From NCBI GenBank assembly GCA_003249935.1, contig QKHT01000060.1:1-35633 (forward strand): DNA of 35,633 bases, written 5' to 3'. Position numbers and translations under genes: made by a program. Under the pieces are notes generated by a model. That model saw only the letters and a list, made by a program, of their open reading frames with translations, ran no database searches and had not been told where the DNA came from. The DNA is from Bacteroidota bacterium (lineage in GTDB: Bacteria > Bacteroidota > Bacteroidia > Bacteroidales > UBA5342). Shown piece after piece: positions 1,029 to 10,616 of the stretch (its first letter is position 1; every line of letters begins with the position of its first letter).

Positions 1029-3464
1029 CTATTCTTTATACTCTAATACCTGATCTATAGAATGTACCACACCGGTTGTATACGAATAGCTTGTTGTTTG
1101 CCCGCTAATTGTTTCGGTGATGGTATTAAATGTCTGAATATTGCTTTTTGTACTGTTAGGTACAATTGAAACATAAGGTGAACCTGCATTATCCAGTATC
1201 TCAATTTTATCAGGAGAGGTACGAATGTTCAGTTTCGAATACAAAGCAATCTGTGAAGTCGAATTTTTATCCAGACGCATTGTTTCATACTGACCACTTG
1301 GTTGCTTACCATCGGTAAAAATATGGGGACCTCTAACAAAATGGTATTTCAAAAAGCTAGTCAGTTTATCAATTGGCCAGGTGTCTAATTTTGTATTATT
1401 GTCGGCTTCATATTTTGCGATGGCAGCATCTGAAGGCACAAAAACAGTAAAGAACTCCTGCGAAGAGATGAATTTAAGATTTGAATTATCGGCAAGACCA
1501 GCCTTAATAAGGTATCCCGAGAATCGGTTCGTAATAGATGTAGAACGACCTAATTCTTTCACAACGCCCCACATGGGTACATTCGATTTGAAATTCAATA
1601 GGGCTTTCACAGCAAATGTTTGGCCGTTATCCACAACTTTATCCACAGACTCCCTAAATTCGGTAAATGTATTCTGTATAATTGAATCGCCATTAAAACC
1701 ATAAGTCGAAGCATCGGTTCCCTGTACCGTTTTGTTAACATTGTCCACCTGAATGTAGTTACCACCCAGGGTGCGCAAATATTCAACATTTGCCCGATCT
1801 TCTATTTGTTGATCGGAAATCATATTGAGCATAACATTTTTAATTACCGGATCTTTTGTAGTGCTCCAGTTTGTCTTTTTTGCAGGCGCATAAGCTCTGT
1901 CGTAATACGATAATGTTTTACGTTTTAAAGTTGCCCCATTGGAAAGATATTCAGTAATATCAATAATCATCGAGGAGTCACCTTCCATACCAACTGAAGC
2001 ATTATCTAATGCAAAAAGCGTATACTTTCTATCAGCGCGCTGAACTTCATCAAGTAATTTGCTTTGATTCAGGGCAAGTGCAGTTACTTCAAATCGGGGG
2101 TTAAGAATTACCGGTCCTAAAACACTTTTAAATGCACGCGGAACGATTGGTCGATTGATGCCAATAAGAAATCCATTAGAACAGTATGTTTTAAGAATGA
2201 TGTCATCTGGTTTTAGTTTCACACTATCACCTGCTTCATTTTTAAACCCTGCGGCAATGTCCTTGCCATAAAGTGGTAATCTCGAAACATATGCACTTGA
2301 AATAAGCTGACGCACATAATCCGGAACATCAGTAAATGAACCATAATGCTCATAACCGCTTGCAGAAGTCACCCACTTATTAATTAACTCATTGAAAGCT
2401 GCGTCGGTAGGTGCAATCATTGTCGGATGATAGTTCATATTGTAATCGAAATTTCCTCTTTTTGGGGCAAAAGCAGCTTGTTCGTTATCAATATCAATGG
2501 CACTCTGACCAACAATACCACTCGAATATGCACTGGTAAAGTCCACATCGAACAACAAGTTGTAAGGTTTTCCCTCTAAATAAGCTGATTGAAGTTTTGT
2601 TGCCGTTTCATTATACTGTACACGGGGCAAAAAGTAGAATAAATCAAGAAACGATTTGAAATAAGTATTCGTTTTATTTTGTCCCTTCAATACCTGCTCA
2701 AGATTTGGAATTGGTTCAACAATTTTATCGACAATATAAACAAATCCATTTTCTGCTGGTTTTGGTTGTTCAATGACCTTAGCACCGGCATAATACATCG
2801 AATTATCATCAAATGTCCGATCGAAATAGTAACTATATTCACTTGTAGAATATCCCAATATATCGAAGTATTCTTTAAAGAACACAGGCACATATTTATA
2901 TGAACCCGGAGCTCTTTTCAACACCTCATTTGTAGGGGTCGTAGACATTCTAAACAGGTTGGCATAATAAATATCTTTATAAATGTAAAAATCTTCAACA
3001 GGATTAAAATACCTTGTAACCCTTTTAAAGGCGATGGCATTTTTCAGAAAATCTGTTTCGGTAATGTCTTCGGGACGATATGACCCAACAATAGTCATAT
3101 GTTTTAGTTGTTCCGGACTCCAACCGTCCTGAATAAGGTGATACCGGATAATGGCATCCCACGATTCACGGGACAAATCGGTGACTTTACTCTTGCCTTT
3201 TGATGCCAGATAGGCATTTACAGCTTCATCATTAGGGCAAAACAGTGTAAACAAACCTGTTCTGCCAATTATACTGTCCCAGCCTGAATACTTTATTGCC
3301 TCGGCAAAAAGCTTACAATCGGAACGTGAATTTACAACTTCCACTATTTTTCCCGGCAGCCAACTAGGCCGCGAATAGTCCGTTTTCGCCGAAAACTCAT
3401 CGCATCCGGTGGCAAAGAACAATAATGAAAGGAAACCCAAAATCGGTCGAATTACCTTATTCAT
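1029..3464 (-). CDS. Fasciclin (FAS1) repeat lipoprotein
   Basis: An 811-residue exported protein. The N-terminus is a lipoprotein signal with a lipobox ending FFATGC (Cys21), so it is likely anchored to the outer membrane. FAS1-type repeats can be read at about residues 45-125 (SGWDSIIGRTGLFTLFCPND), around 270-400 (a diverged copy with MIAPTDAAFNELINKW), around 455-560 and about 650-800 (FFTVFVPSDAAIAKYEAD, ending TGVVHSIDQVLEYKE). FAS1 domains are extracellular adhesion or binding modules. In Bacteroidota such multi-repeat lipoproteins are common members of SusC/SusD loci, where they are thought to help bind the substrate at the surface. The gene is first in a minus-strand pair with the SusC-like gene. 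ATG at 3464 is chosen because it places the lipobox correctly. The ligand is unknown. Confidence 0.88.
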   Translation of the reverse strand: MNKVIRPILGFLSLLFFATGCDEFSAKTDYSRPSWLPGKIVEVVNSRSDCKLFAEAIKYSGWDSIIGRTGLFTLFCPNDEAVNAYLASKGKSKVTDLSRESWDAIIRYHLIQDGWSPEQLKHMTIVGSYRPEDITETDFLKNAIAFKRVTRYFNPVEDFYIYKDIYYANLFRMSTTPTNEVLKRAPGSYKYVPVFFKEYFDILGYSTSEYSYYFDRTFDDNSMYYAGAKVIEQPKPAENGFVYIVDKIVEPIPNLEQVLKGQNKTNTYFKSFLDLFYFLPRVQYNETATKLQSAYLEGKPYNLLFDVDFTSAYSSGIVGQSAIDIDNEQAAFAPKRGNFDYNMNYHPTMIAPTDAAFNELINKWVTSASGYEHYGSFTDVPDYVRQLISSAYVSRLPLYGKDIAAGFKNEAGDSVKLKPDDIILKTYCSNGFLIGINRPIVPRAFKSVLGPVILNPRFEVTALALNQSKLLDEVQRADRKYTLFALDNASVGMEGDSSMIIDITEYLSNGATLKRKTLSYYDRAYAPAKKTNWSTTKDPVIKNVMLNMISDQQIEDRANVEYLRTLGGNYIQVDNVNKTVQGTDASTYGFNGDSIIQNTFTEFRESVDKVVDNGQTFAVKALLNFKSNVPMWGVVKELGRSTSITNRFSGYLIKAGLADNSNLKFISSQEFFTVFVPSDAAIAKYEADNNTKLDTWPIDKLTSFLKYHFVRGPHIFTDGKQPSGQYETMRLDKNSTSQIALYSKLNIRTSPDKIEILDNAGSPYVSIVPNSTKSNIQTFNTITETISGQTTSYSYTTGVVHSIDQVLEYKE

Positions 3465-4000: not shown

Positions 4001-5647
4001 TTAAGCTTTTTGCTCATAAAAGAGTGTACGTGTTGGTTGATCACAAACTTCAGTCGGACCGAAATACTGAATCGGACCGGGATAAACGTACAATGTTTCA
4101 ACAGCCCATTTATCGCGGTTTGCCACAAACTGTTTGTATGGTTTACCGTCTAATTCCACGAGAGCTTTTTGAATTACAGGTTTCATTTCACCATGACGAC
4201 GTTCCATATTCATCATCATGGTTACAGGCACGCCTCCTGCAATCCATTGTTCGGCTGGGGCAGTGGTATTGCGAACAGACGACATATAGCCTGTTTTACC
4301 ATTACCAATTAAAACGGCTGCATTGTACCCGAGTGAATAACAGTAATCGGCATCGAAGTTAGAAGGTGCTGCACAACGACCTTCGTAGCCAAAAAAGTGG
4401 GTGATGGTTGAAAATTTGCCATCATATTTACCCTCTGCTTTCATTGATTTTAGTTTAAGTTCAACCATTTCGGCAAGCAATTTTTCGGTTTCGATGCGCG
4501 AAACCTGCACATTACCATGTGGGTCGCGATCGAGGGTAAGTTGCTTGGCAAAACCTGCCGGTAAATTTGCAAATTCTTTAGAAGAATCGGCCGAGAGTTT
4601 ACTAATAACAAAATTACGTTTTTCATCGTCGGATCCCAAAGCATTAAACTCATCGTTATGGGCTAACAAATCGTTCAGTTCACTGATGAGTTTTTTCATT
4701 GAAGGCACAAATTCGACCAAGCCTTCGGGAATAAGCGCAGTACCAAAATTTTCGCCATTAGCGGCACGTTTTGCCACAATTTCGGCAATATAAGCTACAA
4801 TTTCGTCGAGAGTCTGCTCTTTAGCTGCAACTTCTTCGGAAATGATAGTAACATTTGGCTGGCATTGCAAAGCACATTCGAGACCGATATGCGAGGCAGA
4901 ACGCCCCATCAGTTTTATAAAGTGCCAGTATTTTTTTGCCGAATTACAATCGCGTTGTATGTTTCCAATTAGCTCGCTGTAAACTTTCGTAGCTGTATCG
5001 AAACCGAAAGAAGTTTCGATCATTTCATTTTTAAGGTCGCCATCTATTGTTTTTGGGCAACCAATAACCTGTATTCCGGTATTTTTTGCAAGATAGTACT
5101 CGGCAAGTACGCAAGCATTGGTATTTGAATCGTCGCCACCAATTACCACAAGTGCCTTAATACCAAGTTTGTTACAAACTTCGATACCTTTATCAAATTG
5201 TGCGGTTTCTTCGAGTTTGGTTCTGCCCGAACCAATAATATCGAAACCACCGGTGTTACGATAGTTATCGATAAAACCAGCAGTTAATTCAACATAATCG
5301 TGATCGACCAAACCACCGGGACCACCAAGAAAACCATAAAGTTTGCAATCGCTGTTAAGAGCTTTTAACCCATCGAACAAGCCCGAAATTACATTGTGAC
5401 CACCGGGGGCCTGACCACCGGAAAGAATTACACCTACATTTATAGCAGGAAATGCTACTTTTGAATCGGCGGCAGCCATTGTAATAATCGGCATTCCGTA
5501 AGTGTTTGGAAAAAGCTTTGCGATTTCGGCCTGATCGGCAATTGAAGCTGTTTTTTCGCCTTCAACGAGTTTTACCGCTCCTTTGAGTGAAGCCGGGAGC
5601 TTTGGAGAATAAGCTGCCCTTGCAATTTGCAATTGACTTTTAATCAT
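4001..5647 (-). CDS. pfp: Pyrophosphate-dependent 6-phosphofructokinase (PFP, long form)
   Basis: Catalyses the reversible phosphorylation of fructose 6-phosphate with pyrophosphate instead of ATP, in cytoplasmic glycolysis/gluconeogenesis. The 548-residue length matches the long PFP clade shared by Bacteroidota, spirochaetes and the plant beta subunit. Visible motifs are the phosphate-binding loop [14 protein letters not shown] (about residues 72-85), GGDDSN (170-175), where Asp in place of the Gly of ATP enzymes marks PPi specificity, the catalytic PKTIDGDL (198-205) and [11 protein letters not shown] (about 247-257). The gene stands apart: 102 bp separate it from menA upstream and it has its own terminator. 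The upstream gap contains a weak AAACTTTG -7-like box on the minus strand. ATG at 5647 is the only sensible start. Confidence 0.96.
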
Positions 5648-5749: not shown

Positions 5750-6652
5750 TTAATTCAAAAAAAGCATTGCCGCCACCATAAAAATAACCGAAAAAGCAAA
5801 TGTAAACAACGCCAGTTGTTTGAGTCCGCCATCGAGCAATTGACCACTACGGTGATGCACAAATCGTGCATGAGCCCAAAATCCGGGCAGTAATAGGTTC
5901 AGCCAAAATCCCGGTTCAAAACAAAAAACAAAAAAAATATTAATGGCCACCCAACCAAGTAGCAATAAAGCATAGTGATACTGTTTTGCCATTTTTTCGC
6001 CAAATAATACGGCCAAAGTAATTTTATCGTTCTCGCTATCGGGAATCAGATCGCGTACATTATTCAGGTTTAGAACACCTGTCGAAAAACAACCAATACT
6101 TATAGCAGGCAAAAGCACAACCCAATTCCAAACGTTACCGTATAAGAAAAAACTTCCGGCAACGCCGGCTGGTCCAAAGAACAAAAACACAAATAAATCG
6201 CCCATTGCACGGTAGCCATAAGGCCGTTTGCCCACGGTGTATTTAATAGAAGCCCACACCGACGCAAGACCCAACAGACCAAACAATAGAAAATACACCA
6301 ATTTATGGGCCGAAAGCGAAACTGCAAGCAACCAAACACCCGCGAAAACACTCAACGACGCAAAAATCCACATCAGAATTTTTATTTCGGCCACCGACAC
6401 TACGCCCGATTGAACCAAACGTCGAGGCCCCACTCTGTTTTCGCCATCGGCACCTTTCATGGCATCGCCATAATCGTTGGCCAAATTCGACAAAATTTGA
6501 AGAAACAGCGTTGTGAGCATTGCCGGAAAAAAAACGGCCGGACTAAATACTCCGAAAATAACGGCAACTGCTGCGCCGGTAATAATCGACGACATGGCCA
6601 ATGGCAAAGTACGAAGTCTGAAAGCTTCGATGTAATGTAATAATTTACTCAT
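5750..6652 (-). CDS. menA: 1,4-dihydroxy-2-naphthoate polyprenyltransferase
   Basis: An integral-membrane UbiA-superfamily prenyltransferase that attaches the polyprenyl tail to 1,4-dihydroxy-2-naphthoate, the membrane step of menaquinone synthesis. The 300-residue protein has about eight hydrophobic segments and the two Asp-rich substrate motifs: NDYGDAMKGADGENRVGPRR (about residues 59-78, the MenA-type motif with the following R-VQSG) and NNVRDLIPDSENDKITLA (about 196-213). It is the last gene of the priA-phosphatase-kinase-menA run: its ATG overlaps the stop of the kinase gene as ATGA, which suggests translational coupling. No other men gene is in the window. UbiA prenyltransferases of other pathways are the alternative, but the motif set fits MenA best. 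Confidence 0.92.
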   Translation of the reverse strand: MSKLLHYIEAFRLRTLPLAMSSIITGAAVAVIFGVFSPAVFFPAMLTTLFLQILSNLANDYGDAMKGADGENRVGPRRLVQSGVVSVAEIKILMWIFASLSVFAGVWLLAVSLSAHKLVYFLLFGLLGLASVWASIKYTVGKRPYGYRAMGDLFVFLFFGPAGVAGSFFLYGNVWNWVVLLPAISIGCFSTGVLNLNNVRDLIPDSENDKITLAVLFGEKMAKQYHYALLLLGWVAINIFFVFCFEPGFWLNLLLPGFWAHARFVHHRSGQLLDGGLKQLALFTFAFSVIFMVAAMLFLN

Positions 6653-7506
6653 CGTGTATATAAATTCAGAACATTTAAAACTTCGGCATAATAACCTTTA
6701 CCAAACAGATTTAGATGGTTCATTAAATGATACAATTGATACACACCATTTCGATAAGCCCAGCCGGGCAATAATGGCCAAATCTCGTTGTAAATGTCGT
6801 AAAAGCCCGAAGGGAGTCCACCAAAAAGCTTTATCAACCCAAATTCGGCTTCGCGATGTCCGTAATACACCGCTGGATCAATTAAACCAACTTTATTATT
6901 TGCCATACAAATGTAGTTTCCCCGCCATAAATCGCCATGCAAAAGTGCCGGTTTTTCGGTCGAACCGGACAAAATAGTATCCAGCCGATGTTCAAGCACA
7001 GAAAATTTCCTCCGAATCTCATCTGTAACCAATCCGTTTTTCTCTAATAAACGAAACTGAAACAGCAATCGGTTTTGAAACCAAAACTCTGTCCAGTTGT
7101 TTTGGGCTGAACCGCTTGCGATATTCTGCTGCACGGATGCCCCGATGGTATTGTTTTCGAAAAAACCAAAAAATGAATTGCTGACTTGATGTTGCAAAGC
7201 CAAACATTCGGCAAACTTAGTGGCAAAACGACGATCTAACGGAACTTCAGCCAAAAATGTGGTCACAAGTAAATCGTCGCCCGCAAACACAATCTCAGGA
7301 ATCACAAAACCGCCTGCTTTTCGCAACTCATTTAAACCGTTGACTTCGCTGCTCAACACAGCCGGTTCACCACAAAACTTAGCTACAAACGCACGACCGG
7401 TTTCATCCAAAACCTTGTACACTTTAGTAATGCCATCACTTAAAGGTTCAACCGAAGAAACAACCCAGCCGGTAATGGCACGAAAATTTGCAAAATCGAA
7501 GCCCAT
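6649..7506 (-). CDS. Fructosamine/ketosamine-3-kinase family protein
   Basis: A 285-residue protein-kinase-fold enzyme. The family phosphorylates the 3-OH of ketosamines (sugar-protein Amadori adducts); the product is unstable and falls off, restoring the amine. Visible motifs are the catalytic HGDLWRGNYI and the metal-binding IDPAVYYGHREAEFGLIKLF, which are typical of the bacterial YniA/FN3K group. The open frame extends upstream to 7623, but those extra residues lie inside the phosphatase gene in another frame. ATG at 7506 gives MGFDFANFRAITG and shares one base with the phosphatase stop (TAATG), so I start there. Bacterial members tested in the literature mostly prefer ribulosamines and erythrulosamines. 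Coupling to the phosphatase next door fits that role. The exact substrate is inferred. Confidence 0.9.
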   Translation of the reverse strand: MGFDFANFRAITGWVVSSVEPLSDGITKVYKVLDETGRAFVAKFCGEPAVLSSEVNGLNELRKAGGFVIPEIVFAGDDLLVTTFLAEVPLDRRFATKFAECLALQHQVSNSFFGFFENNTIGASVQQNIASGSAQNNWTEFWFQNRLLFQFRLLEKNGLVTDEIRRKFSVLEHRLDTILSGSTEKPALLHGDLWRGNYICMANNKVGLIDPAVYYGHREAEFGLIKLFGGLPSGFYDIYNEIWPLLPGWAYRNGVYQLYHLMNHLNLFGKGYYAEVLNVLNLYTR

Positions 7507-7967
7507 TATCGCCGTGATAAAAGTCCGGCACAAGCATCTTCGAGAATATCGAGCACAAATTCGAAACCCATATCGCCGCCAAAATACGGATCGGGCACTT
7601 CCGAAACACTCATCTTGGTGCAAAAATCGGTCATTATAGCCAATTTCGCCCGGTTTTGGTCTGAACCGGCTAATCGGGTTAACGTTCGCATATTATCGCC
7701 ATCCATACCTATTATAAGATCGAACCGTCCAAAATCGGCCGGAATAAACTGCCGCGAAATACTATCGAGCCGGTAACCACGCCTTATGGCATGTTGTTTC
7801 ATGCGACTGTCGGCCCCATCACCGGCATGAAAAGCAGACAATCCGGCCGAATCGATTTCAAATTCATGTTTCCGACCGGCCTTTTCGACCATGGTTCGAA
7901 ACACTGATTCGGCCGAAGGACTCCGGCAAATATTACCGAGGCACACAAAGAGAATGCGTTGTTTCAT
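7506..7967 (-). CDS. Low-molecular-weight protein-tyrosine-phosphatase family protein
   Basis: A 153-residue cytoplasmic phosphatase of the LMW-PTP fold, of normal family length. The P-loop CLGNICRS gives the nucleophile Cys9 and Arg15 near the N-terminus, and the general acid is in VPDPYF (Asp126). Family members act on phosphotyrosine or, in some bacteria, phosphoarginine. Human LMW-PTP-A is reported to dephosphorylate protein-ribulosamine 5-phosphate. The gene sits 10 bp after priA and overlaps the fructosamine-kinase gene by one base, a pairing that points to protein deglycation more than to capsule control (no tyrosine kinase or capsule gene is near). Substrate inferred from context only. 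Confidence 0.92.
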   Translation of the reverse strand: MKQRILFVCLGNICRSPSAESVFRTMVEKAGRKHEFEIDSAGLSAFHAGDGADSRMKQHAIRRGYRLDSISRQFIPADFGRFDLIIGMDGDNMRTLTRLAGSDQNRAKLAIMTDFCTKMSVSEVPDPYFGGDMGFEFVLDILEDACAGLLSRR

Positions 7968-7977
7968 ATATTAATGT

Positions 7978-10437
7978 TTAATAAGGATCCACATCTGCAA
8001 AAATACGTATAGCTTTGAATGAACCGGATATTTGTGCAATGCTGTTTTGTAGAAGCTCCTTGTATCGTTTTATATTTAAATTACGCGATATTTTTAACGA
8101 AATCTGCCAAAGATAAATACCCTTAACCAGATTAACCGGCGGCTGATAGGGTCCTGCTATATCAATGCCCTCGGCCACAGGCAACAGATTCACCAATTCG
8201 TTGGCCACCGTAGCAGAAACATCGGCAATGCGCGACTCAATTCGCACAATAATGAGCCGGAAATATGGCGGATACTTAAAAAATTGTCTCTCGGCAAACT
8301 GTCCATCCAAAAAGTCATTCCATTCGCCACGGCTCAACATCCCGATCGCTTCACTTTCGGGCATGTAAGTTTGCAGCACCACATGCCCCGCTAAACCACG
8401 CCTACCGGTTCGCCCGGCCACTTGCCACAACATCTGAAAGCCCCGTTCGTAAGCTCTGAAATCGGCCGAAGAGAGCAAATTATCGGCATTCATCACCCCC
8501 ACGAGACCCACATTTTCGAAATCGAGTCCTTTGGTTATCATTTGGGTTCCAACCAGAATATCGATTTTGCCGGCCGCAAAATCGACCATCAGTTCGCTGT
8601 ATTTTTTTCGGGTGGTTAACGTATCGGTATCGGCACGCGCCACTTTAGCATTTGGAAAATATTTTTGAACTTCCTCCACCACCATTTCGGTGCCAAAGCC
8701 TTTCGACTTGAGTGGCTGATGACAATGACTACAATAGTACGAAACCGCCAGATTGAACCCGCAATAATGGCAAACCAACTTTCCGGTAAACTGATGCACG
8801 GTTAGTGCGACATTGCAACGGCGGCATTTTTCCACATGTCCGCACACGGCACATTCGAGATACCGTTCGTAACCTCTGCGGTTCTGCAACAAAATAATCT
8901 GATGTTTTTGTTCGAGATTCACTTCAATGCATTCAATTAACCGGTACGAAAAATGGCCTTTAGCGATTTTTCGTTTGTATGCCGCAGCCATATCTACAAT
9001 TTCGATATGGGTGGGTTCGCTCGCAAAATATTTTTCGCCAAGATAGACGTATCCATATTTTTGAATTGTGCAGTTATACCAACTTTCGAACGATGGTGTG
9101 GCCGAACCCAGTATTACTTTCGCTTTGTGTATTGCGGCTAATACTAAGGCCGCATCGCGTGCATTATACCGCGGTGCCGGTTCGGATTGTTTGTACGAAC
9201 CGTCGTGCTCTTCGTCTACCACGATAAGACCAAGATTCGTAAAAGGCAATAAAAGCGCACTTCGGGTACCCAGAACTAACAACGGCGACTGATCGTTTGC
9301 CACACGATCCCATACTTTTGCCCGTTGATTATCGGTGTAGGCCGAATTATAAACCATTACCCCGGCACCAAAAACTGCACTAATACGGGCCAAAAATTGC
9401 TGTGTCAGCCCGATTTCAGGCAATAAAAACAGCACTTGCCGTCCTTTGGACAACATATCGGCAATTCGATAAAAGTAAAGTTCAGTTTTTCCACTGGCGG
9501 TTACCCCGTGTAAAAGAACAGAATCGAACCTATTCTGGCACACAACCAATTCATCATAAGCTTTTTGCTGAACCGAAGTCAGTACTGCAAGCACCGGTTC
9601 AGCCATAATATTTTGAGAAAATGCTTTTCGCAGCTTTTCCTCAACAAACACACCTTTTTTAATCAGTGCAGAATAGACTGACCCACCAACACCCGATTCG
9701 GCCAAAATCCTGTCTTTTTCTATGCTATCTTTAATATCAAGACCATGTTCATCTAAAAGGTTTAAAAAAGATGCCAATAAACGCTGCTGTTTAGGCGAAC
9801 GGTGCAAAGCCTCAAACAAGGCATTGCAAGCATCGCCGGCTTGTAAAGTGCGGTTTAGCGAAACCATGGTATCTTCCTGATAGACCGACTTTTCCGGCAA
9901 CGATTCGTCGACATTTATAACACCTGCTTCGAGTAGCTTTTTCAAGTAATAAGGTGTTCTGGCTGTACCGCATATTTTTACGATTTCGGCTTCGGAAATT
10001 GAACCTTTCGATTCGAGAACATCCAGAATGGCCTCGGTTTTTACAGAAATGCGTTGATTGAATTTTACGCCTGTTGCCCTTATATTTAGCTTCTTTTCGG
10101 GCCGAAATGTTGCCGGAAGCACCGCTTTGAGCACTTCGGCAGGTGTTGCCATGTAATAATCCGACAACCAAACCATAAATTGCATGGCAATTGACGGAAT
10201 AAGCGGTGTATTGTCGGGTGCTTTAACAATTTCTTTGAGCGACCCGCTATACTCGGGCAACGAAACCAACTGCCATACAACCCCAACCTGTAAACCGATT
10301 TTACCAAAAGGTACAAACACACGACTACCCACATCCACACAACCGGCCATTTCGGCCGGAATGCGGTACGAATAAATCTGAGGAGGCCCTCCGGGAATAA
10401 TTACCCCTGCCGTTAATACACCTGTTTCGGAAGTCAT
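7978..10437 (-). CDS. priA: Primosomal protein N' (replication restart helicase PriA)
   Basis: A 3'-5' superfamily 2 helicase that recognises stalled forks and reloads the replisome. It has an N-terminal 3'-end/DNA-binding domain (GVIIPGGPPQIYSYRIP onward), Walker A GVTASGKTELY around residue 310, the DEEH box VVDEEHDGSYKQ around 405, the zinc module with four CxxC pairs around 530-575 (CAVCGHVEKCRRC ... CHYCGF ... CSHC) and C-terminal helicase motifs (GTQMITKGLDFENV, QVAGRTGRRG). The open frame can start at 10500, but that adds an unrelated hydrophobic stretch. ATG at 10437 (MTSETGVLTAGVI) gives a standard 819-residue PriA. It heads the run priA-phosphatase-kinase-menA and is divergent from rpoD across 179 bp. 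Confidence 0.96.
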   Translation of the reverse strand: MTSETGVLTAGVIIPGGPPQIYSYRIPAEMAGCVDVGSRVFVPFGKIGLQVGVVWQLVSLPEYSGSLKEIVKAPDNTPLIPSIAMQFMVWLSDYYMATPAEVLKAVLPATFRPEKKLNIRATGVKFNQRISVKTEAILDVLESKGSISEAEIVKICGTARTPYYLKKLLEAGVINVDESLPEKSVYQEDTMVSLNRTLQAGDACNALFEALHRSPKQQRLLASFLNLLDEHGLDIKDSIEKDRILAESGVGGSVYSALIKKGVFVEEKLRKAFSQNIMAEPVLAVLTSVQQKAYDELVVCQNRFDSVLLHGVTASGKTELYFYRIADMLSKGRQVLFLLPEIGLTQQFLARISAVFGAGVMVYNSAYTDNQRAKVWDRVANDQSPLLVLGTRSALLLPFTNLGLIVVDEEHDGSYKQSEPAPRYNARDAALVLAAIHKAKVILGSATPSFESWYNCTIQKYGYVYLGEKYFASEPTHIEIVDMAAAYKRKIAKGHFSYRLIECIEVNLEQKHQIILLQNRRGYERYLECAVCGHVEKCRRCNVALTVHQFTGKLVCHYCGFNLAVSYYCSHCHQPLKSKGFGTEMVVEEVQKYFPNAKVARADTDTLTTRKKYSELMVDFAAGKIDILVGTQMITKGLDFENVGLVGVMNADNLLSSADFRAYERGFQMLWQVAGRTGRRGLAGHVVLQTYMPESEAIGMLSRGEWNDFLDGQFAERQFFKYPPYFRLIIVRIESRIADVSATVANELVNLLPVAEGIDIAGPYQPPVNLVKGIYLWQISLKISRNLNIKRYKELLQNSIAQISGSFKAIRIFADVDPY

Positions 10438-10616
10438 GGCCCAAAAATAAGTAAAAGGGATGGCAAACCGAAAAGTACCGGAACGAAAAAAATAAAACAC
10501 CGAATTGCCTTATATACAAAAAATAAATGAATAATAATGAAACAAAGAATAATCGGCTGCGTATAAATGAACACATTTAACAACTTTAGTGTTCCATTTA
10601 CCAAAAGGTCTTAGCT

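Follow-up and report, generated by a model that had tools for sequence, protein, structure and literature searches.

An LMW-PTP gene and an FN3K-family kinase gene at one Bacteroidota locus: a candidate two-step module for protein deglycation

The locus and its two gene products

The gene pair described here lies on the minus strand of contig QKHT01000060.1 from a Bacteroidota bacterium (GCA_003249935.1), which we analyzed as one stretch of 35,633 nucleotides (the window). An LMW-PTP gene (its product is called PTP below) and an FN3K-family kinase gene sit within a minus-strand run in which priA comes before the pair and menA and a PPi-dependent phosphofructokinase gene come after it. The features are as follows.

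7978-10500, minus strand: priA helicase, directly upstream neighbor, not thought to be part of the mechanism
7506-7967, minus strand: LMW-PTP of 153 aa, proposed ribulosamine 5-phosphatase (open reading frame, Pfam, P-loop, fold)
7504-7508, minus strand: TAATG, the PTP stop and kinase start, one base common to both
6649-7506, minus strand: FN3K-family kinase of 285 aa from its ATG, putative ketosamine (ribulosamine) 3-kinase (open reading frame, Pfam, motifs, fold)
5750-6652, minus strand: menA (1,4-dihydroxy-2-naphthoate polyprenyltransferase), neighbor, not thought to be part of the mechanism
4001-5647, minus strand: PPi-dependent phosphofructokinase, next gene past menA

The overlap is seen directly in the DNA: the PTP stop TAA occupies 7508-7506 and the kinase ATG 7506-7504, base 7506 belonging to both, and the pair is likely to be translationally coupled through this TAATG. 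A first-pass annotation of the same DNA had reported this overlap and the coordinates of the pair, and both were exact. It had not noted that 10 nt separate the end of priA from the PTP start and that the kinase stop overlaps menA by 4 nt. A gap of 102 nt lies between menA and the phosphofructokinase gene. The next long minus-strand ORF past phosphofructokinase (811 aa, 1029-3464) was without an NCBIfam match at 1e-8.

The identities given in that annotation, an LMW-PTP and a fructosamine kinase, were borne out for both proteins by profile matches, predicted folds and a complete set of catalytic residues. The PTP matched Pfam LMWPc (PF01451) at 126.9 bits (cut-off 23.2) over the entire profile (1-144/144). 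Its P-loop is CLGNICRS (C9-LGNI-C-R15) and its acid loop D126-P-Y-F, so that the CX5R(S/T) loop, the DPY acid and, in the predicted model (pLDDT 97.3), the LMW-PTP fold are all present. By sequence, the best solved relative was Synechocystis slr0328 (158 bits). In Foldseek searches with the model the top chains were Entamoeba PTPs (38–46% identity) and a Vibrio PTP (39%), and human LMW-PTP-A ranked behind these (TM 0.92–0.94, 34% identity). T. thermophilus TT1001 gave TM 0.89–0.91 at 35% identity, and Wzb (24–27%) and YwlE (25%) ranked lower than both TT1001 and human LMW-PTP. As the Entamoeba and Vibrio enzymes came out on top, and as the B form of human LMW-PTP had a fold score much like that of the A form, the match of the predicted fold does not single out ribulosamine phosphatases. 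The window PTP resembles human LMW-PTP-A in fold, CX5R loop and DPY acid, but its D-loop reads DPYF, a departure from the DPYY found in 95 of 114 paired relatives.

According to PMC8001253, pArg specificity goes with a Thr at PX5 in the P-loop, and Ile is the pTyr-type letter. Ile was found here in the window PTP and in all 114 paired or linked PTPs. The window PTP therefore shares superfamily and P-loop with the arginine phosphatases YwlE and PtpB but differs at their pArg-marking Thr, and under the rule as given there a role as phosphoarginine phosphatase is unlikely.

The kinase matched Pfam Fructosamin_kin (PF03881) at 193.5 bits (cut-off 22.4; profile 30-282/288) and contains the motifs HGDLWRGN and DPAVYYGH; the kinase Lys/Glu, HGDLWxGN and DPA are all present. 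By predicted fold (model pLDDT 95.7) it sides with the FN3Ks, whose chains took all of the first 12 places among the PDB matches (E ≤ 1.1e-15), far ahead of aminoglycoside kinases (from 2e-10). PMC13223202 describes nine residues that contact a substrate mimic in human FN3K, three of them (I25, D217 and W219) essential, and eight of the nine, including the essential three, are kept in the window kinase. The ninth, H291 in the human enzyme, is replaced by Leu in the window kinase, as in most of the family (169 of 186 rows, counting the window). Human numbering was read off a sequence alignment, with I25 placed by family alignments; the human specificity sites H171 and M179 were left out, M179 being inconsistent with the alignment numbering. 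The window kinase has Tyr at human position 260 and His at 284 (Tyr in 162 and His in 65 of the 186 family rows), the letters of a ribulosamine-restricted human FN3K mutant in PMC13223202. At position 244 it has Ala, to which that paper's Phe/Tyr rule is inapplicable.

The kinase is thus like human FN3K and KT3K (FN3K-RP) in fold, pocket and the two mutant letters, and unlike them in its overall sequence (25–27% identity), its Ala at 244 and an eroded glycine loop, which reads SDGI against GGxI in most of the family (the last Gly and the Ile kept, the preceding one replaced). On the FN3K tree it was the sole row flagged for a long end branch (1.22). One FN3K-family protein, E. coli YniA, is reportedly inactive on all substrates tested.

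Adjacency of the two genes in Bacteroidota and beyond

PF03881 was matched in 141 of the 395 genomes sampled from the phylum and, among 41 relatives, in 11, one of them the window's own genome. We examined 149 FN3K loci, of which 138 came from the phylum sample and 11, counting the window, from relatives; L002, a duplicate of the window, was excluded, and G182 and G194, with weak partial matches only, were not counted as FN3K-bearing. Most loci were covered with 1.5–2 kb per side, some ending at contig ends. A PTP gene was called directly upstream when it lay on the same strand with less than 400 nt separating its stop from the conserved region of the kinase.

By this definition PTP was directly upstream in 84/149 loci, which fall in 20 of 37 family codes, and further upstream, within 2 kb, in another 6. 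PTP preceded FN3K in every linked locus (90/90), and within the stretches examined it was never downstream or on the other strand (0/149). In 35 of these 90 loci the kinase frame has an ATG that overlaps the PTP stop, and in 71 there is an ATG or GTG within 20 nt. By estimate, since each genome carries only one or a few such PTPs and has thousands of genes, far less than one adjacent locus would be expected by chance; the adjacency is more than chance. The first-pass annotation had suggested such a survey and had named adjacency in this genome alone as a result that would refute its reading; the spread over family codes and, as set out below, to named loci of other phyla shows that this is not the case.

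No PTP was seen in the examined flanks of the remaining 59 loci; at least nine of them, all of family code f63, have a same-strand PTP 1.9–3.4 kb upstream. A TetR-type regulator and a beta-ketoacyl synthase separate the two genes in several f63 loci and in named relatives (L123:2857-4092, L182:2153-2704). Broken down by kinship to the window, linked loci numbered 1/1 for its own, 1/2 for the same family, 0/8 for the same order, 5/27 for the same class and 83/111 for the same phylum; within the window's order, pairs were thus seen only in its own family (2/3 vs 0/8 outside), and four family codes of its class (f45, f43, f46, f51) gave no pairs in 20 loci. Separately, two very divergent FN3K homologs (L180 and L181, from G400 and G279; f69) on a common branch of 2.28 still have LMW-PTP directly upstream, so that the link between the genes outlives strong divergence of the kinase.

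An alignment-based scan confirmed at least 583 loci, of which the best 80 are considered here, so that phylum counts among them are not rates; the same scan with the window kinase alone as query gave no matches. Among these best 80, PTP was directly upstream in 25 and further up in 3. By NCBI phylum, and again among the best 80 of 583, it was directly upstream in Bacteroidota (11/54), Balneolota (5/8, with 2 more further up), Chloroflexota (2/2), Sumerlaeota (2/2), Spirochaetota (1/1), Ignavibacteriota (1/1), Bacillota (1/3) and loci of unassigned phylum (2/2), and in none from Rhodothermota (0/1, with one at 2 kb), Pseudomonadota (0/5) or Myxococcota (0/1, only ~290 nt upstream covered). Named-locus and phylum-sample counts are not additive, as some named loci come from the same genomes. 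The pair is also present in the named, culturable Algoriphagus, Belliella and Kroppenstedtia.

Outer neighbors were grouped into clusters, and for 20 large clusters a single representative was scanned against Pfam. These neighbors vary by lineage and include a class I tRNA synthetase, exonuclease VII, RsgA, FBPase and an amino acid kinase, among others; no tyrosine kinase was found among the 20 representatives.

Paired and unpaired phosphatases, and the history of the junction

A canonical LMW-PTP (E < 1e-26) was present in all 139 genomes with a real FN3K (best E ≤ 1.1e-30) and in 134 of 256 without. Because the classes were sorted by eye from tables and kinship was left uncorrected, the Fisher value of 1.4e-29 for this co-occurrence is not to be read as a probability.

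A quick tree was built from 185 PTPs, 114 paired or linked with FN3K and 71 not, omitting L072 for its arsenate-reductase-like loop, L064 for its atypical loop and any fragment shorter than 130 aa, among them the PTP of G002, which is cut by a contig end. The paired label changed 23 times on this tree against 56 in shuffles, at least six changes being forced by well-supported branches. The window PTP was placed in a set with weak support (87%), whose 20 rows include 17 unpaired ones, mostly from its order; two of its five nearest rows were paired, and no well-supported set contained it. No alignment column separated paired from unpaired PTPs, the highest mutual information being 0.245 bits. 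No dedicated subfamily of paired PTPs emerged, and as the paired enzymes form no separate clade, their sequences give no sign of an enzyme reserved for ribulosamines. Enzymes of this type are encoded whether or not a genome also has the kinase; this speaks against strict dedication, and the phosphatase probably has other substrates too.

How the junction arose at this locus was considered from gene order among relatives. In six loci of the same order (L045, L048, L309, L318, L319, L327), priA is followed by PTP on the same strand with no adjoining FN3K; no ORF over 90 codons was called in the priA-PTP interval in four of the six, and another ORF lies there in L319 (= L374) and L048 (= L375). 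FN3K is on another contig in one of these genomes (G032, L045), and the other five gave no match. Within the window's family, G002 has PTP, FN3K, menA and phosphofructokinase in the same order as the window. In G001 (L367:7253-9909) FN3K lies directly before phosphofructokinase with no menA between, and PTP is elsewhere.

Two histories would account for this: an ancestral priA-PTP-FN3K run from which FN3K was repeatedly lost or moved away, or the joining of two native pieces in the window's family. Retention of the pair fits the FN3K tree, where 23 of the 29 rows in the window's well-supported set are paired, and fits the paired rows in the weakly supported PTP set. Re-formation fits the six priA-PTP loci with no adjoining FN3K and the FN3K-phosphofructokinase arrangement of G001. 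As a side observation, FN3K is beside the PPi-dependent phosphofructokinase gene in the window's family, with menA between them in G002 and in the window's own genome; of the other menA loci (30 fetched in total, each with 1.5 kb flanks), none had any of these genes next to menA.

Proposed two-step deglycation and competing readings

Bacterial FN3K homologs are reportedly mostly ribulosamine/erythrulosamine 3-kinases, and Gemayel et al. in 2007 are said to have noted an LMW-PTP gene immediately before the FN3K homolog in 11 genomes and activity of the T. thermophilus PTP on ribulosamine 5-phosphates. In the same year Fortpied et al. reportedly identified human LMW-PTP-A as a protein-ribulosamine 5-phosphatase. 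The window has the same arrangement, with its LMW-PTP gene immediately before FN3K, and shares with those operons (the T. thermophilus pair included) the two families, their order and the proposed substrates; it differs in lying between priA and menA and in having a divergent, putative kinase.

From these relatives we infer the substrates of both enzymes, the order of the steps and co-transcription. Ribose 5-phosphate (and erythrose 4-phosphate) would glycate lysines, giving as Amadori product a protein-bound ribulosamine 5-phosphate. LMW-PTP would then take off the terminal 5-phosphate and the kinase would phosphorylate the 3-hydroxyl (C3), after which the 3-phosphate would leave by beta-elimination and free the amine. 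That the pair is a two-gene repair module within the minus-strand run, in which PTP and then the kinase strip ribose-phosphate damage off proteins, we hold to be moderately probable. Among the readings considered, deglycation is the best supported, because the pair is widespread while its outer neighbors differ between lineages. It is further favored by the co-occurrence of the two families, the conserved pocket residues of the kinase, the P-loop Ile and the predicted folds. Weighing against it are the loci where no PTP was seen near FN3K, the scarcity of pairs in the window's order and class and their absence from the five Pseudomonadota loci, the mixing of paired and unpaired PTPs on the tree, a fold match shared with other PTPs, the long branch and eroded glycine loop of the window kinase, and the reported inactivity of YniA.

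The weightiest competitor would have FN3K repair ribulosamines and LMW-PTP act mainly on phosphotyrosine (for example, for BY-kinases), the operon being shared through co-expression or descent. Such a phosphotyrosine role is possible because the genome encodes two BY-kinase-like proteins over cut-off and the window PTP is its only canonical LMW-PTP found, the other two PF01451 matches being one arsenate-reductase-like protein (TIGR02691 135.8 bits, cut-off 174.3) and a fragment. A CpsB-type phosphatase was not found in this genome by a search that was positive in B. subtilis, and unpaired PTPs of the same kind exist where FN3K is absent. Yet the neighbor conserved across lineages is FN3K, with a tyrosine kinase in 0/20 neighbor-cluster representatives, and the predicted fold is closer to human LMW-PTP and TT1001 than to Wzb; we consider this reading tentative and on balance unlikely. 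Ribulosamine and phosphotyrosine roles may also coexist in the PTP. The deglycation reading of the first-pass annotation is partly supported: of the alternative substrates it named, phosphoarginine is unlikely, and phosphotyrosine is still a possible one.

An antagonist pair, in which the phosphatase serves as a switch or guard by undoing a phosphorylation that the kinase places on some small metabolite or protein sugar, with no two-step repair, would suit the fast evolution of the window kinase, and tight kinase-phosphatase coupling is also typical of switches. However, the pocket residues match those of substrate-binding FN3Ks, and tested bacterial LMW-PTPs reportedly lack ribulosamine 3-phosphatase activity, which makes such a pair very improbable. 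Passive adjacency through vertical inheritance or compact genomes, with no functional link, draws on the frequent separation of FN3K and PTP in the window's class, including the four family codes with no pairs. It is very improbable and is largely refuted by the survey, in which direct adjacency recurred across 20 family codes and further phyla in one fixed order amid varied outer contexts.

For protein deglycation, then, the wide pairing and the fit of residues and folds partly support what the first-pass annotation proposed, but the idea was not new for bacteria: the pair, its order and its proposed role were reportedly already described in kind in 2007. What is new here is the breadth of the pairing, wider than the 11 genomes reportedly covered then, and the finding that paired and unpaired PTPs are not told apart by sequence. 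No comparable survey was found in the open-access literature, a weak negative, as subscription papers fell mostly outside its scope. Should the deglycation reading be true, a very widely annotated 'tyrosine phosphatase' would in many lineages have a housekeeping role in damage repair, tied to ribose 5-phosphate.

Two minor observations were made in passing. In the window's genome, a frame that by inspection resembles an arsenate reductase (L004:1501-1800, G000:C78) is broken shortly past the matched stretch. In G036 (L376:7513-10217), FN3K lies directly before the gene for the alpha subunit of D-lysine 5,6-aminomutase, a lysine-fermentation gene, and a link to glycated free lysine is possible there.
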